Positions 36,815 through 62,481 of a stretch of 64,000 bases of DNA are shown here, piece after piece (within the stretch, counting starts at the first letter, position 1; the number at the start of each line of letters is the position of its first letter). The notes beneath the pieces were generated by a model that was not told the origin of the DNA, made no database searches, and saw only the letters and a list, made by a program, of their open reading frames with translations. Source of the stretch: Crambe crambe. Its lineage: Eukaryota; Porifera; Demospongiae; Poecilosclerida; Crambeidae. A program made the position numbers and the translations under genes. The DNA is taken from the NCBI GenBank assembly GCA_963924555.1, contig OZ004598.1, positions 4,686,858 through 4,750,857 of the forward strand, in the 5' to 3' direction.

Positions 36815-39260
36815 GGGGGGCATCCACATAGACTGTACCCCCTGCTTGTAGTGAATTAATCAACTACGTGTTTTGTAGGTATTTGCTGAATCAGCTGAAG
36901 TTGGCCTGTGAACGAGAAAGTTCTATCTTCATTCCAACATGTGCTGACAACAGCACAAGGGGAGAGAGAGGTGAACCAAATGGTGACAACTTATTCCACT
37001 TGAAACCTGGAGTCTCCTTCCATTTCTTCTCCACACAGATCCCATGTATGTATGTATGTATGTATGTATGTATGTATGTATGTATGTATGTATGTATGTG
37101 GCAGTGAATGGTTTGCACTCTGGGCTTGTAAGCGGGAGACTATGAGTTCGAGTCCCACCAGTGACATTGGTCTTTTCACCAGTCCATCTAACACCATGCC
37201 ACCAGTCCACCCAGCTGAAAATGGGTACCTGTATTTTCCAGGGTGTTATGTATGTATGTATGTATGTATGTATGTGCCTAGCCAGAAACCACACCCACAT
37301 CTAGATTTTTGAGGTGTTGCTATGCATAATGACTATGGGTAATAGGCATTATCCTCTGGAATGATGCACACTGTATACTAATCTGATTGGTCCACAGGTG
37401 GCGATGCGGCCATCTTTCCCCAGAATCTCTCGAAGGAAGAGGAAGCATGTGGAACCGAATCAGAGCAGGCACATGTGCATGGAAGTTACCTTAACAATTC
37501 AAAGGAGGGTGAAAACTTGACCTCTTTGAAGCCACTGAGCTCAACTACAGACTCGTTTGGTGAAACTTGTACTGGTGGTATGATTAGCAGTCATGAAGAC
37601 TCTTCCTCAGAGTCTCCACCATCAAAGAAAATGAAAGTCACAACTGTGTCATCAGTGGCTGAATCATGTACCTGTGGTGGTAGTAGTAGTGTCCTCACTG
37701 AGGAAACAGGAGATGATAGCACACATAGGAGGAAAAGCTCGGAACTGAGTACTAGTGATACCACGAGCTCACTTTGCAAGGATTCTGAAAGGACCATTCA
37801 CTCCGGGGACTTACCAGTTCCTTTTTCGGCTCAAGCATCTAGAGATCTTCTTGGAATACTACAAGTAGTGGAAGATTATAGTAGAGTATCTTGTATGGAC
37901 GATAAATTGTGTGGTGGTAGGAGTAGCTGTTTTTCCCAAGCTACTGGAGGTGACCTTCCCATGTGTAGAGGGGGACCAGGTGAGATCGATGTCTTGGAGG
38001 ATAGGGTTTGTGGGTCATTTGTCAATTGTTACATTGCCACACTGGGGATGTGGGCCAATTCATTAGACACTCTGACATTACCACACCGGATTAAGTGGGC
38101 CATCCGTCAATTATCTATATAGAAGTTGAATACTCCACACTGGGATAGTGAAACCACTGAACCCACATAAGCTCAGGATCTCTATATAATATTATGAACC
38201 CACGTTGTTTAAATAATTATCCTTTCCTTGGTTCTGCCTTAGGAGAAGAACAAGATGTGCATCGCACGGGTGCTAAGTGTGTACATGGAGGTCCACAGGA
38301 TCTCAGGAGGTCAGGACTTGACTACCACACAGTTGGAGCTTTTCGGACCAAACCTGGAAGAGGAGACCCAACTCTCTCCATGTCTTGTAGTGATAAGATC
38401 TTGCGTTGGAATGTGCTTGGATGCCAAGGAGCTCTGCTTTCTCACTTCCTAAGCCAGCCGGTTTTCTTTGAAAGTTTTACGATTTCGAGCCCTTTGTTTG
38501 ATAGGAAAGCTTTAAGTAGAGCTATCTATGACCGGCTCATTCAATCTGCAGCATTGAAAGGTGAGAGCTGTGAGAGTGAACTCTTCTCTGTCAACCGTCC
38601 AAAGCTCTTCCATTGCAAGTGTCTGCTCAAGGAGCTTAAAGAGTGTGGATTGATATGTTCTGCTGATCGGAAAGTATCTCCTGCTGGTAGGTAACCATGG
38701 GAAACAGCTAGACAACACATGCATGTACTGAGACTTTAATTAAGGGGAGGAGCATACAGGACCACTAAGTTAGAACTCTCTTCTCTATAATGACCCTGTG
38801 TCCATGCTGTTCAGGTATTTGTCACTGCTCCCATCCCAACACTCATGAGGTTCTCATCCAGGGTTTGCGACAGGGAGTCAATGTCAAGTTGGGCCCAAGC
38901 GAAAAAGTGAGGTAATGGGGTAGAATGCAGTGATATATACTCAATGCTATCATGTTCAGTTATCTTTTTCTTCTATTTCAGTGTTTCCATTTGCAAAGGT
39001 AAGATATTTAAGGAATTCATCATGTTTCTGCACTCTATTCCTGTTAAGAAGTTACCTATCTCTCTAAGGTAAGAAGTAATATATTTTTTGTTATTCTCTT
39101 TTACTGTACTTTACATAGAAACTGGAGTGTGTCGATGACATATCATTTGTTTAAGGAAGGCAATACAAATTATAGTAAAAATAGAACTCTATTTTTGTCT
39201 ATCTGTTCAATGTGGTTAACCAATAATGCCGAATTGGAAAATTTCACCTATCATTGTTAA
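35981..39260 (+). CDS. ADAT1: tRNA-specific adenosine deaminase 1
   Basis: Nine exons in phase: 35981-36122, 36408-36488, 36638-36692, 36879-37045, 37398-37979, 38243-38686, 38815-38911, 38982-39068, 39119-39260; about 598 residues. ADAT1 deaminates A37 next to the anticodon of tRNA-Ala to inosine. Visible signatures: [26 protein letters not shown], the catalytic [13 protein letters not shown] (HAE), the zinc ligand in IPCGDA with the Cys split across an intron, [10 protein letters not shown], and [31 protein letters not shown]. Exon 5 carries a Ser/Glu-rich insert of about 150 residues between the two catalytic blocks, longer than in humans. The last exon ([14 protein letters not shown]) matches the human C-terminal TYQEYKE region only weakly. 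Met at 35984 is an equal start. The last exons recur in the duplication at 41219. Confidence 0.92.
36768..36822. repeat. (GT)n followed by poly-G
   Basis: About 28 bp of GT then about 24 G in an ADAT1 intron. Confidence 0.95.
37044..37275 (+). mobile_element. tRNA-derived SINE inserted in a (TATG)n microsatellite
   Basis: About 148 bp (37100-37247) lie between two (TATG)n blocks (37044-37098 and 37247-37275). The left part has a pol III A box-like TGGTTTGCACTCTGGG and a B box GAGTTCGAGTCCC at 37144-37156, about 35 bp apart, as in a tRNA head. The right part contains GCTGAAAATGGGTACCTG, close to a motif I recall from the body of several invertebrate SINEs. It does not fold as a functional tRNA. 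It sits in an ADAT1 intron. Confidence 0.75.
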
Positions 39261-39273
39261 TGTGCATTGTCAG

Positions 39274-39304
39274 TGCGCATGCGTGATATCGGGTACGACT
39301 ATAT
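39274..39304. promoter_or_regulatory. Promoter of Cys-rich gene A
   Basis: An NRF-1-like TGCGCATGCGTG (39274-39285) is followed by a TATATAATG motif (about 39299-39307), about 75 bp before the start codon. It lies immediately after the ADAT1 stop. The corresponding NRF-1-like site in copy B is 41461-41472, where the TATA-like motif has been deleted. Confidence 0.6.
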
Positions 39305-39380
39305 AATGGCGAAGATTTTCGACATTAAGCACAACTCTTCTGCTCTACAACTTTGAAGGAACTCAACAGCACTATAGAAA

Positions 39381-40219
39381 ATGAAGCTTCTCGTAGTCCT
39401 TGGACTCGTGCTTGTCGCAGCCCAGCTCAGCATGGCTGCTGACGTTCCGGAATCGGTTTTCGCTTCTATGGAGACTGGAATGGTGCAGGGAGCACATACT
39501 TATGAGGACTTCTTGCAGGCAACCTACAATTGTTAGTATGATGTAATGGTACTTAAACTTACTAGATAGTGGCCTAGTATATTGACTATGGGTTGTGGAT
39601 GAGCATTTTAATTCTTGCAGCTTCCTGTTCCAGCTGTCGCTGTGGAGGATGCTGTCCAGTCATTGTCCGGAATTGTCCTCCTAAATGGGTGGGCTCTGTG
39701 ATCCAACCTGTCAGCGGTTGGAGGGGAAACGTAGCTGTTATTGTGGACTGGGGCTGCACGGCATACAACCCCTGTGGCTGCTGTCCTAGAGGTCGACTCT
39801 GCACGCTCAATGATCATGGATTTGTGTGAGTGAATTTGACTGCTACAATCATCCTCTTCCTAGAGTATAAAAATCGTCCTTATTGAGTCTTTCGGAATGT
39901 CCTTGAGTCAGGATAGCTAACTAGCTACCATTAAGATTTCCCCCTTACAATGCATTGATTCTGCAGGTATTATATCAATTGGGGTGATGGGACACATGAT
40001 GTAGGCTACCAGGATACCATTGGACCTTTCCAGAAGCTCCATCAATACGACAAAAGCTGCCGCACTCGTAGATACCCCATAACAGTCCACTATTGTAGCA
40101 ATCCAGGCTGTCCCGCTGAGAGGTGCTGCGACACCCTCTACGGCGTCATCTATGTGAGTGAGGACCCACAGAACCCACACCCCGAAGTTGACTTCAATAG
40201 CCCTCTCAAGCCTCAGTAA
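39381..40219 (+). CDS. Secreted Cys-rich protein with PKD-like motif, copy A
   Basis: Three exons (39381-39531, 39621-39825, 39967-40219) give 202 residues. A clear signal peptide opens it (MKLLVVLGLVLVAAQLSMAA). The mature protein has 16 cysteines, many in tight clusters (CSSCRCGGCC, PCGCC, ERCC). Two similar strands occur, GNVAVIVDWGC and FVYYINWGDGTHD; the second, with the later HQYDKSC and YPITVHYC, is the WGDGT/H-x-Y pattern of PKD (Ig-like) domains. An extracellular, disulphide-rich, PKD-like fold is inferred. I know no named family with this arrangement. Function is unknown: adhesion, matrix, venom-like or defence roles are all open. It is paralogous to copy B at 41509. Confidence 0.8.
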
Positions 40220-40639
40220 ATGACTTCTTTAAGAATAAAACTGACTGTTGGATTATAATTCTTACGTATCTCAGCTGTAACAACTTGTGTTCCTATTATG
40301 TTATGGTCAAAAGAGATTTTTAATGTGTATCAAACTAATCATGGAAGGGTGCATGGTGAATTGAGTATAACCCTGTCAATTATCAGGTGGGTACCGGGTA
40401 TGTGGTAAATTTGAATTGGGTATTTAATATAAATTTTACGGATGTCATGTGACCAGATATGACTAAAGGTGTGGCATTGAGTATAACCCTCTAAAGATTA
40501 CCTTTTTAAGTGGGGTGATAGTTATAGGGTGATTTGGGCAGGACTCTGTTAATCATCCGAAGGGTCTGCAGCTGTATACAGTATACCACCCTCTTAATTT
40601 TACATCATAAAAGTGGGCGTGTACATGGTCACATGATTA

Positions 40640-41218
40640 AGTGCAGTAAATGGTGCGAACTAGTTCATGATTTTAAAAATACGTAAGCACATCCATAAAT
40701 AAAAACATATAGGATGAGGTACTTCTTTATTATTTTTTTCATGACATGTTTAAATGAACTGCTCATAATTAAGTTAAAACACCAGACAATGTTCGCTAAA
40801 ATGCATCGTCTGGATGGAAAAATTAGTAGGCGAATGAAACAAAATCCGGAAAGAATGAGGAAAAACAACAATAAAAAAATAACAAACCAAAACAAACAAC
40901 AAAACAAGAAAGAAAAAGAATAAACAAACAAACAGTCACATACACCAAAAAAAAGAGGCTATTATGATGATAATTATGCTTTTTAAAGTTATGTGCATGA
41001 AGTCGAGCAAACACATTTGTTCTTGTTTTTTTTTTCTGATGCACACAACAATATGTGGATGAACCTCTATGTTATGTTCAGAGAAGCTCGTACTTGAGCA
41101 GATGAAATTTTTGCAGGAGTCAAACACTCTTCATGATAATTATTTTTTTGCAAATGGGGAATGAAAAGAGAATATCATTAAAACGAACTGTATTCTCAGC
41201 TCACTACATATTATCTCA
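40640..41218 (-). pseudogene. Decayed copy of G-alpha-s 3' end
   Basis: About 40640-41035 matches 42700-43230 (3' UTR of G-alpha-s). 41090-41205 matches the last coding exon and adjoining intron of G-alpha-s (43267-43490), with an internal loss of about 100 bp; the LLKYELL-stop end is recognisable at about 41089-41100. It is the left-hand remnant of the tandem duplication and cannot be expressed as a G-alpha end. Confidence 0.85.
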
Positions 41219-41460
41219 TTATGTACTGAGACTTTATCCCAACACTCATGGAGGTTCTCATTCAGGGTTGCAACAGGGAGTCAATGTCAAGTTGGGCCCA
41301 AGTGAAAAAGTGAGGTAATGTCTATTTCATTGTTTCCATTTGCAAAGGTAAGATACTTAAGGAATTCATCACTCTATTCCTGTTAAGAAATTCAAAATAG
41401 TTTGCTTATCTATTCAATGTGGTTAACCACAAAGCTAAATGGGAAAATTTCTATTGTCAT
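41219..41460 (+). pseudogene. Decayed copy of ADAT1 3' exons
   Basis: ATGTACTGAGACTTTATCCCAACACTCATGG at 41220 onward matches ADAT1 38723-38911, with about 85 bp deleted. GTTTCCATTTGCAAAGGTAAG (41333) and GGAATTCATCACTCTATTCCTG match ADAT1 exon 38982-39068. Splice sites and frame are broken. It ends at the promoter of Cys-rich copy B. Confidence 0.88.
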
Positions 41461-41472
41461 TGCGCATGCGTG
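41461..41472. promoter_or_regulatory. NRF-1-like site upstream of Cys-rich gene B
   Basis: TGCGCATGCGTG, 37 bp before the start codon; identical to the site upstream of copy A. Confidence 0.55.
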
Positions 41473-41508
41473 ATAGTACTTCGAAGCAACTCAACAGCAC
41501 CATAGAAA

Positions 41509-42415
41509 ATGAAGCTTCTCGGACTCGTGCTTGTCGCAGCCGAGCTCAGCATGGCTGCTGAGGTTCCGGAATCGTCCATGGAGACTGGAATGGCCCAGGG
41601 AGCACATATTTATGAGGACTTCTTGCAGGCAACCTACAATTGTTAGTAAGTAATGGTACTTTAAGCTTACTAGTACATAGCCTAATATATTAGATTGTGG
41701 ATGAACATTTTAATTCTTGCAGCTTCCTGTTCCAGCTGTCGCTGTGGAGGATGCTGTCCGGTCATCATCCGGAATTGTCCTCCTAAATGGGTGGGCTCTG
41801 TGATCCAATCTATCAGCGGTTGGAGGGGAAACGTAGCTGTTATTGTGGACTGGGGCTGCACGGAATACAACCCCTGTGGCTGCTGTCCTAGAGGTCGACT
41901 CTGCACTCTCAATGACCATGGATTTGTGTGAGTGAATTAGATTGCTACAATCATTCTTCCTAGGTGCTGTCCTCTTACTAGAATAGCTAGCTAGCTAGCT
42001 ATCCAGTGGAGCATCTGAATCATGGACACATTTTTTTCCTTTGTATATAGAGAGTCTTCTTTTGGAGGTTATTTTGTGTAGAGTATAAATTATCTTTATT
42101 CGGTGAGAGGTTTGTCCTCTTTTAGAATTCCAGTATAGTATGGCTAGCTAGCCACCATTAGCATTAATCCCAGGGTAGAAAATATATCAAGATTTTTTTT
42201 CATTGATTCTGCACAGGTCGTATATTGATTGGGGTGATGGGACACATGATGTAGCCCACCAGTATAACATTGGACCTTTCCAGAAGCTTCATCAATACGA
42301 CAAAAGCTGCCGCACTCGTAAATACCCCATAACAGTCCACTATTGTAGCAATCCAGGCTGTCCCGCTGAGAGGTGCTGCGACACCCTCCACGGTGACATC
42401 GACGTGCGTGAGTGA
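41509..42415 (+). CDS. Secreted Cys-rich protein with PKD-like motif, copy B
   Basis: Three exons (41509-41641, 41723-41927, 42217-42415) give 178 residues. Exon 2 has the same length as in copy A with few changes; the spacing of all 16 Cys and the DWGDGTHD motif are kept. Exon 1 has lost 18 bp in frame, shortening the hydrophobic signal peptide and putting Glu into it (LVAAELSMAA), so secretion may be weakened. At the 3' end a 4-bp insertion (GTGCGTGAGTGAGG against GTGAGTGAGG) shifts the frame and stops about 20 residues early, losing the acidic/Pro-rich tail. Intron 2 is longer (289 against 141 bp). The conserved cysteines suggest it may still be functional. Confidence 0.75.
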
Positions 42416-43266
42416 GGATCCACTGACATCACACCCCAAAGTTGACTTTAATAAATCCCTCTCAACACCGAGTAAATGACGAATAAAACTGACATATTCT
42501 GTACAACTTGTGTTCATAGTTTGTAGCATGCTTAATATAAAGTTTACAGATGTCATGTGACCAGCAATCTGTTTGACTGAAGGTGTGGCTGTAGTAAATT
42601 TTCCTGAAGATTACCTTTTTAAGTGGGCTGACAGTTATAGGGTGATTTGGGCAGGACCCTGTTAATCATCCCAAGGGTCTGCAGCTGTACCACCCTCTTA
42701 ATTTAGATTATAAAAGTGGGCGTGTACATGGTCACTTGATTAGGTACGTTATATGGTGCTATAATAAGAACTAGTTCATGATTTTAAAAATTACATACGC
42801 ACATCATTAAGTTCCATAAATAAAATATATAGGGACGAGGTTACTTCTTTTATTATTATTATTTTCATGGCATGTGTAAATGAACTGCTCATAATTACAA
42901 TAATTAATAGCTTTATGGCATAAATAAAAGTTTTAAAAGCTAAAACACCAGACAATGTTCACTAAAATGCATCGTCTGGATGGAAAATTAGTAGGTGAAT
43001 GAAACAAAATCCGGAAAGAATGAGAAAACAAAAATAACAACAAAAATAACAAACAAACAAACAAACAAACAGTAGCAATATCATACATACATACACCGAA
43101 AAAAATGGCAGTTCTATAGTTATTAAGATGATATGCTGTTTAAAGTTATGTACATGAAGTCGAGCAAACACGTTTGTTCTTTTTTTTTTTTTTTTTTAAT
43201 GTTTAAGTTTTTTTTTTCCTTTTTCTGATGCACACAACAACATGTGGATGAACCTCTATGTTATGT
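42416..43266. other. 3' flank shared by Cys-rich genes and G-alpha-s
   Basis: No coding signal. Matches 40220-41090 (first duplication unit). It contains the 3' UTRs of copy B and, from the other strand, of G-alpha-s, plus A/T-rich tracts. Confidence 0.7.
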
Positions 43267-52051
<8,785 letters not shown>

Positions 52052-59949: not shown

Positions 59950-62481
59950 TTATTCACTGTCTCTGGAATGTTTATGTCTATGCTTCTTGCGTTCTTTATG
60001 GCTCTATGTAAAAACATAGAAATGAAGAAAAAGGGGTGGGTTACAAAGAAATATGAGTAAGTGTATTATTATGGTATGTACTATGTATGAAGGGCACAGT
60101 CACTGATTGCAAAGAAATAATATATCCCTAAGCCAAATACCAGATAGGTACTGGTACAGTAGCTCCTATGTACAGTAGCCCAGTGCACCGAGACACTTTT
60201 CTGATCTGCCTTCTAATTTATTATCCTTGACCTGGTGACTCACCTTTGTGTCCTTGTGCTTATGATGGTGGTGTCGATGGTGATGATCTCTGTGCTTCTT
60301 GGGACCTGCCACCTCTGCCGCCTCTTCTTCATCCTCATTCTGGGCAGCAGTATATGTAGGAAGAGGAACAGTGGTGGGAGCCACGTCCAAGTCTAGAGTA
60401 AAAGAGGAATTTTAAACAAAAATTCATGACTCTTTCTCGGGACCTCCCAATGCAGTTAAGATAAGCAAAGGGCATCTTTAGTGGAACCTTTGAATAATGG
60501 ACATGCTTGGGAGTTGGGACCCAGCCTTTTGTCCTTTGTACAGAGGTTGTCCTCTTTTGGAGGTTATATTGTTAATAGAGGTAGATTGTCCTTTGTTGAG
60601 AGGTTTGTCCTCTGTCGGAGTGTCCTTTATACACACCATTGCTCTGGGGAATAGGGACACAAGATTATTAGTATGTCATGAGTCCATATTTATTGAGGGA
60701 TTCTACTGCTGTCCATGCTGAGAGATTCCACTGTGCTATGGATTGGAAACGTTCTTGACTACTGAAAAAAAAATAAAAATTTTTTTAAGATGGGCCAAAA
60801 AATTTACTCAAGGTGACAAAATCATAGAGTCAATTGGGATAAGGACCTCTGTTTATTTCACACTTTGATGCCATGATTAACGGCAAAAGACGGTGGGGTA
60901 AGTGTGAATAAGAGATAATTGGTGAGAAAAGGTGCGTTCATCCGGTTGTGGGTGGTTTGCGGGGTTGAGCTGTCGTCAGGTGATAGTGAGACTGGGAAGA
61001 GATGCTTGTGATAATCATTGAGGTATTTCAAGGACTATGAAACTAATGATCGGTGTGTGAAAGCACGAAAGCTTAGGAATTAGCATACACAGGGAGGTGT
61101 AGGAAGAAGGGGGCGGTGACCCCGCACCATTATCAACTCTGATACACACGGCATGTGCTCAGTGATCGCACATGCTTAGTGACTGCACATGCTCAGTGAC
61201 TGCACATGCTTAGTGCAGTGGCACATTGTGCTACTCGTTACTATGGGTGAAATAGTCTCATACCCAGAGTACCAGACTGAGGCATGGGTCTGACTGGATA
61301 GGAGTAATTTTATTACCTGGAGGGAGTGATGGACCATAATTGCTCGTCTGTGCTGGAACAGAGGACACTTCCATTGGTACTTGGACTTTATCAGAGTCTC
61401 TCTTCCTCTCATTTCTATCTTCTCTCTCATAATCTTTCCTCCTTTCATTCACATCTTCTCTTTTATTTTGTTTACTATCCCTCCTATCTCCATGGTGATG
61501 CTCATTGCCCCTGTCATTACGACGAGGTATTTGACCCCCTTTAAGGTCATTACCAACTCTACCCTTATTTTTGTCACCGTCATCAACTTTGTCTCTTCTG
61601 TTAGTAGCAAGCCGGCTGCCTTGAACCCTGTCCCTTTTGTCTTGGTATTCAGAAGGCATCTTAGTATTTGCTGAGGTTTGGAGATTCTTATTCCCTAACT
61701 GTTTAGATCCAGTCACTATTGATGGGAGGAGTGTCTTTGTTATATGAGATAAATCTTGCCATTTCTTCTCCATGGGATGGTCACTCCCTGACATTCTGGG
61801 AATGTTCTCATCATTTCTGTCAACACTCGTCTCAGTTTCACTGTCAGAGGAGTCATTTTCACTTGAGCTTTCAGCAAAGATGGCCTTGAATAAGTCCATT
61901 GGTGGTCTCACCTATAATGAAAGAGATATAAAAAATATATTGATGAACTCCTCACCAGCTGCCTCCTTGGCGCAGTCGGCAGCGCGTCAGTCTCATAATC
62001 TGAAGGTCGTGAGTTCGAGCCTCACAGGTGGCACGTTTTTTTTCCCCCCTCTTTTTTTTTCTTTTCCTCCCCTCTCTTCCCACATCCCCATCCCCAAGAA
62101 TAACTACTCACCTCTTGAATGGATTCATCCTTAGCAACTATAACTTCAGTGGTAGAAGTAGTTGTAGCTTCTTTACCAGATGCATCATTCACTGATGGAG
62201 GTTTTAACTCCATCTTCCTTTCAGAAGCTTCTAAATTTTGTTGCATAATACCTGCACTCTTATCATCATTGTCAGGCAGAATTCGCTGTGTGTGTAGAAA
62301 TTTGATGTTCCTGTTAGTATCTCGACTACGTGTAGCTGTCCTCCTCTCACTAGCCACTCCAACAACATGAGAACTGTGTGTACAAGAAGAGTTATCCTTA
62401 ATACCATTTTGGATGTAGTTCAGTATATCCTTAGCATAGGGGGTGAAGCAAGGTTTGTATTTCCAGGCAAGAGTCTCTGTA
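59950..62481 (-). CDS. GPATCH1: GPATCH1 C-terminal part
   Basis: Exons: about 62481-62112, 61911-61317, 60392-60244, 60003-59950. The decisive match is VRPPMDLFKAIFAESSSENDSSDSE, the conserved motif near the C-terminus of GPATCH1, followed by YGPSLPPG and a His/Lys/Arg-rich tail (HRDHHHRHHHHKHKD, KERKKHRHKHSRD), as in the human protein. GPATCH1 is a G-patch protein of late spliceosomal complexes. The G-patch and DUF1604 regions are not in the window; they should lie beyond 64000, which would make the CARD gene nested in its intron, unless this is a truncated copy. The upper limit of the first exon is uncertain: acceptors at 62482 or 62505. The middle exon is Arg/Asp-rich and low-complexity. 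It converges on DUF445, with 191 bp between the stops. Confidence 0.8.
60475..60735. repeat. Dispersed AGTGGAACC / TGTCCTTT repeat
   Basis: Several copies of TTGTCCTTTGT and GTTGTCCTCTTTTGGAGG, bounded by AGTGGAACC at 60480 and GATTCCACTG at 60723 (inverted). This is the same foldback family as at 34030, 34880 and 42110. Located in a GPATCH1 intron. Confidence 0.6.
61961..62033 (+). tRNA. tRNA-Met(CAT), elongator
   Basis: A 73-base cloverleaf without intron. Acceptor GCCTCCT pairs with AGGTGGC (one T-T mismatch at pair 4-69), D stem GCGC/GCGC, anticodon loop CTCATAA with CAT at 61994-61996, T arm GTGAG-TTCGAGC-CTCAC, discriminator A. The A box (TGGCGCAGTCGG) and B box (GAGTTCGAGCC) are intact, and a pol III terminator T8 starts at 62036. 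The sequence is close to animal elongator Met tRNA, not initiator. It lies in a GPATCH1 intron on the opposite strand, and was probably inserted there. Confidence 0.95.
62036..62046 (+). terminator. Pol III terminator of tRNA-Met
   Basis: A T run begins three bases after the discriminator position. Confidence 0.9.

Follow-up and report, generated by a model that had tools for sequence, protein, structure and literature searches.

The window analysed here, a stretch of 64,000 nucleotides from the genome of the demosponge Crambe crambe (contig OZ004598.1, positions 4,686,858 to 4,750,857), contains two tandem genes, in the following called A and B, which encode short cysteine-rich proteins with a common WGDG motif. 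Both belong to a protein family found in demosponges that is probably a distant, sponge-specific offshoot of the PKD-like domains, as judged from the comparison of aligned sequences. We give about an even chance to the reading that the product is a secreted binding module made of a single PKD-like domain, whose B-C and F-G loops vary in length, and that B is a duplicate which has since suffered losses.

Gene A codes for 202 and gene B for 178 amino acids, each in three exons on the forward strand. Their introns are bounded by GT and AG, and the reading frame is continuous over both joints; the joints are predicted, and P0001 and P0004, two relatives from the family described below, align across them. 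The N-termini of both proteins are hydrophobic and, judged by eye, resemble signal peptides, in agreement with the original prediction. By their sequence the proteins would be secretory. Listing the cysteines by position bears out the claim of 16 in each copy with identical spacing (positions 53, 56, 58, 61, 62, 69, 96, 102, 104, 105, 111, 150, 162, 167, 172 and 173 of A, and each of these minus 6 in B). The strands described earlier are likewise present, VIVDWGC in both proteins and INWGDGTHD in A corresponding to IDWGDGTHD in B.

The pair is not isolated, as it had first appeared. Three protein searches led to 55 clusters (P0001 to P0055), 53 of them at E<=1e-8, while P0054 (E=4.3e-3) is weaker and P0055 (E=0.24) was placed outside the family. 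Clusters must not be equated with genes, because many of them are single exons. Four clusters carry a species name, namely Dysidea avara (P0005, P0027) and Ephydatia muelleri (P0011, P0017), which are both Demospongiae but represent two subclasses. Nine further clusters, P0054 included, bear Em gene names of the form found in P0011, leading to 11 Ephydatia models, nine of which fall between Em0014g188 and g244. This compares with two copies at one locus in Crambe crambe: when its genome (143 Mb in 119 contigs, with the window on a contig of 5.67 Mb, C21) was searched with three family queries, one at E<=0.001 and two at E<=10, and the best candidates were scored, only the exons of A and B were found. 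The family is likely restricted to sponges, though the other 41 family clusters come without an organism name. Among prokaryotic species genomes 28 stretches, and among viral contigs five stretches, matched two peptide patterns, and tblastn found no relatives in either set; a PKD scan of viral contigs (40 stretches) also gave no relatives. Exon 2 of A and B stops at a GF site, and in nine clusters the sequence ends at most a few residues away from it, which suggests that an intron is conserved at this position in the family.

Two observations on individual models may be added. By eye, P0042, P0049 and P0054 (Em0014g232a, Em0770g2a and Em0014g234a) show frame changes inside the family domain and could be decayed paralogues or model errors. 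P0007 (Em0337g9a) is a family member fused to a TIM21 domain (PF08294), probably through a joined gene model. A literature search found no title or abstract opening naming the family, by which its absence from the literature is not shown; a search with six Ephydatia gene names gave no papers, and in the main text of PMC4633127 neither "PKD" nor "WGDG" occurs.

Of the family clusters, 35 include the WGDG site; 32 of these have the motif, with P0033, P0034 and P0053 differing at its last residue, and this occurrence is not due to chance. In an alignment of 16 rows W-G-D-G and H-x-Y are invariant. Both A and B possess the features that mark this demosponge family, i.e. six core cysteines, WGDG, GPxQ, HxY, a short length and a hydrophobic start. 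With the uncharacterised proteins of Ephydatia muelleri (e.g. EMCRGX_G027172 / Em0014g240a) and Dysidea avara they share GCCPxIV, RGNxAxIVDWG, WGDG, GPxQ, HxY and CC, whereas the B-C loop of these relatives is shorter and their cysteines are fewer. If 17 members are compared, four cysteines (A61, A111, A162, A173) occur in all and two (A62, A172) in 15, while the other ten of A and B occur in at most three; some of these extra cysteines recur in exon fragments outside the 17 (P0003, P0024, P0035, P0039). By this comparison the ten non-core cysteines are additions, four of them lying in loop B-C and one in loop F-G. Strand lengths are constant over 17 aligned members, and length varies before strand A (13-19) and in the loops B-C (13-27), E-F (5-8) and F-G (8-12). 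A sequon between the start and the core is present in 10 of the 14 members with a complete N-terminus compared to 3.4 expected from shuffles (it is missing in P0013, P0017, P0025 and P0027), and this part of the protein may be glycosylated.

The resemblance to PKD domains (PF00801, PF18911) consists of the GDG turn, here as a WGDG variant of FGDG, the subsequent spacing of H-x-Y and the Y-x-[VI] strand, and an Ig-like sandwich in the AlphaFold models of two relatives, both with seven strands. Differences are the WGDG in place of WDFGDG and the six conserved cysteines. Furthermore, the A/B protein is apparently free-standing, short and by its sequence secretory, whereas PKD domains are normally repeats in large proteins. 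As the scoring of single sequences against the PKD profile is weak (the best, P0016, reaches 8.9 bits), profiles were compared instead. An alignment of 17 family rows scored 26.6 against 34 PKD segments, a value reached by none of 200 column shuffles (maximum 23.5; reversed 12.9). For a core alignment of 28 rows the score was 25.9, again reached by none of 300 shuffles (maximum 20.1). FnIII domains served as a control: 22 sequences from the same genome gave an HHalign score of 10.0 with a probability of 0.12, and fn3 is absent from the Pfam matches of A and B. The best protein outside the family, the bacterial P0055 with its V-x-WGDG repeats, has Pfam PKD domains and aligns over 47 columns (VTWGDGS ... 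SHAYT ... YTITV) with an HHalign probability of 84%; it differs in having two PKD repeats, in lacking the cysteine pattern of the family and in its database E-value, which is not significant.

The second element of our reading, the origin of B by duplication, follows from the surrounding DNA. The regions 38833-41132 and 41236-43334 share collinear blocks. The pair is flanked upstream by an adenosine-deaminase gene (A_deamin, E=2.1e-29, 38161-38691) and downstream by a G-protein alpha gene on the opposite strand (67.9 bits at 43948-44370, above the cut-off), whose C-terminal piece at 43270-43482 scores under the cut-off. The exon at 38833-39053 had no Pfam match; from its position and open frames it would be the end of the deaminase gene. 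Between A and B the 3' ends of both neighbours recur as truncated copies which mark the duplication junction (Table 1). B is the result of a tandem duplication that took in about 2.2 kb of DNA, with the 3' ends of the deaminase and G-alpha genes as its two limits. A real duplication is preferred to an assembly artefact, in which two haplotypes would have been joined, because the non-coding DNA that can be aligned shows about 80-87% identity and because of the neighbour relics at the junction.

Table 1. Position of the exons of both genes and of the elements flanking them in the window.
Feature	Position	Strand	Remark
Gene A, exon 1	39381..39531	+	Hydrophobic start and linker; sequon NSS completed across the exon 1/2 joint (N50)
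Gene A, exon 2	39621..39825	+	GCCPVIV; strands A and B, assigned by alignment to P0001; extra cysteines in loop B-C
Gene A, exon 3 with stop	39967..40219	+	WGDGT, GPFQ, HQY, YCS, CC, tail
Gene B, exon 1	41509..41641	+	Two 3-residue gaps compared to A
Gene B, exon 2	41723..41927	+	
Gene B, exon 3 with stop	42217..42415	+	Early end from a 4-base insertion near 42400-42412
TATATAA, TATA-box-like	39300..39306	+	Upstream of gene A, within a stretch of ~59 bases (roughly 39289-39349) missing from copy B
AATAAA, poly-A-signal-like, after gene A	40234..40239	+	
AATAAA after gene B	42482..42487	+	
Relic of the downstream G-alpha gene, copied from its 3' end	41020..41132	-	Matches about 43209-43334
Relic copy of 38833-39053	41236..41392	+	Source by position the putative 3' end of the upstream A_deamin gene

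Identity between such young copies says little by itself, because intron 1 of A and B is still 86% identical (3' flank 80%); intron 2 aligns poorly (48% identity), and the rate estimates include neither it nor the 5' flank. Counting over 178 codons by the Nei-Gojobori method, with significance by Fisher test, gave 0.110 synonymous (dS) and 0.047 nonsynonymous (dN) substitutions per site, a ratio of 0.426 (p=0.022). For exons 2-3 alone dN/dS was 0.445 (p=0.051); neither ratio is near 1, the value that would have spoken against the original reading. The earlier statement that signal peptide and tail drift against a strong conservation of exons 2-3 does not hold between the copies: dN is 0.040 in exon 1, 0.026 in exon 2 and 0.073 in exon 3, which makes exon 3 the least conserved by this measure even though exon 1 holds the two 3-residue gaps, and the tails differ because the insertion in B shifts the frame into an early stop. 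The argument for selection on the folded core, which had been derived from that statement, is partly wrong: the ratio is 0.43 and the core is what the species have in common, but between the copies no exon 2-3 core stands out as conserved.

B may be a recently silenced pseudogene instead of a working second gene, a reading to which we give slightly less than an even chance. A looks complete, while B is devoid of the promoter-like segment with the TATA element and of part of the tail. Among 15 residue differences in exons 2-3, ten are derived in B and two in A (p=0.039), the derived state being judged against ten hand-chosen relatives per exon and the remaining three excluded since both states or neither occur among the relatives; two of the changes in B (A66, A177) affect sites fixed in 10/10 relatives compared. 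In our reading B is under weaker constraint than A, and its expression may be lower. A silenced copy is opposed by the intact frame, splice sites and 16/16 cysteines of B. In a simple neutral simulation, run with 0.065 substitutions per site and gaps at half their non-coding rate, B stayed open over 522 nt in just 0.26% of the runs, and because this is so seldom B was probably constrained through much of its life. Gap runs in coding DNA also count against silencing, with three observed where the rate in intron 1 and the 3' flank would give 13.6 (p=6.5e-4), though more weakly if only one branch is regarded as neutral (p=0.09).

Several results weigh against kinship with PKD domains and against the binding function that we attach to it. 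Neither A nor B matched any Pfam family, PKD included, and PKD was found neither in the 10 members nor in the 9 family members scanned, where the only Pfam matches were TIM21 in the fused model and a chance hit to Apq12. The general PKD set is matched with an HHalign probability of no more than 32-36%, a PKD domain from the sponge's own genome reaches 2.4%, and A and B as single sequences score below 0 bits against the PKD profile. One must also keep in mind that a motif filter was used to assemble the PKD set and that P0055 was chosen because it was the best outside hit. The fold models are those of relatives and not of A or B; Foldseek found no match in the PDB at E<=0.001, and the structural ranking ties PKD with FnIII and GH2 Ig-like domains. 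As for the loops, E-F and the stretch before strand A vary in length as well.

These results leave room for an Ig-like sandwich of other origin (FnIII-like, GH2-type or a sponge invention) with a convergent WGDG turn, in which case the relation to PKD would be apparent only. Masking WGDG lowers the score from 25.9 to 19.1, which speaks for such convergence, as do the missing Pfam match and the tie in the fold ranking. We nevertheless regard it as unlikely: even with WGDG masked, just one of 200 shuffles attains the score, the FnIII profile of the same genome falls well short of the PKD score, and the top outside hit of a large protein search carries PKD domains. In the viral structure library a single match at E<=0.001, to a PhoD-like N-terminal domain (E=4.6e-4), is taken as a general sandwich match. 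NCBIfam NF058578 (pilus PamR of the candidate phyla radiation, RbmA-like) matches weakly near WGDG in 7/10 members (best E=7.8e-4), but gene A reaches 11.7 bits compared to a cut-off of 300. In line with the first description, no Pfam family matches the pair, and no named family lacking the PKD fold gave a clear hit. The label PKD-like is reasonable but remote: the similarity exceeds shuffles and FnIII at the level of alignments and the domain is apparently free-standing, while the Pfam profiles proposed for the check do not match.

A different function is equally doubtful, namely a structural or defensive secreted product, such as a matrix cross-linker or an antimicrobial effector, for which the cysteines would be important and the loops would have no specific partner. 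The 16 cysteines in about 180-202 residues and the several Ephydatia gene models would fit such a product, but as ten of the 16 are missing from most members, heavy cross-linking is no family trait. Kinship with the PDGF/VEGF-type cystine-knot growth factors, prompted by RCGGCC and by a phmmer search of the PDB ranking VEGF-A first (E=0.037, residues 34-107 of A), is most improbable, since no Pfam growth-factor family was matched, a profile search of the PDB gave no match, relatives keep only the GCCP part of the motif found in A and B, and their predicted fold is an Ig-like sandwich.

Under the reading of a secreted PKD-like binding module, the product of gene A would start with a signal-peptide-like segment, followed by a short linker (with an N-glycosylation sequon in most members), about 120 residues folded into one PKD-like Ig sandwich, and a short tail. 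The strands, together with the conserved positions of WGDG, GPxQ, HxY and CC, would provide a rigid scaffold, with disulphides probably bracing it. In Ig folds the B-C and F-G loops are located at the same end. With their variable length and the extra cysteines of the A/B lineage they could act as stapled loops facing an extracellular partner, and the most likely task would be extracellular binding, e.g. to matrix, mucus or the surface of microbes, via this end. Tandem duplication would then have given rise to B, followed by the loss of the TATA-containing segment and the tail.

Some further observations concern other parts of the window and the genome. Tandem arrays lie in or beside the G-alpha gene at 44393-44743 (period 39, seven overlapping copies listed) and 45074-45285 (period 55, three listed). 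The sequence at 37104-37175, next to a TATG repeat, is tRNA-like by eye (GTTCGAGTCCCACC, B-box-like) and possibly a tRNA-derived short interspersed element, with no call by ARAGORN; a tRNA-Met (cat) gene is located at 61961-62034 on the forward strand. FnIII domains are abundant in the genome (2146 first-look candidates, 150 of them scored), with dense arrays on contigs C9, C11, C12, C13 and C20 (in part recorded as L097-L126).

The molecules by which sponges build their matrix and handle microbes are poorly known. The present analysis adds a sponge protein family outside the Pfam copy searched, now with a likely fold, and makes free-standing PKD-like secreted domains a testable target in sponges. 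A more general and distinctly less probable proposal is that demosponges make secreted recognition scaffolds from a PKD-type domain standing on its own, with rigid strands and with B-C and F-G loops that differ in length and cysteine stapling between species and paralogues, and with an expansion in Ephydatia. If true, this would represent a PKD-based route to diverse extracellular binders. Should the variable loops bind ligands, the family would provide a PKD-based scaffold for binders that occurs in nature.
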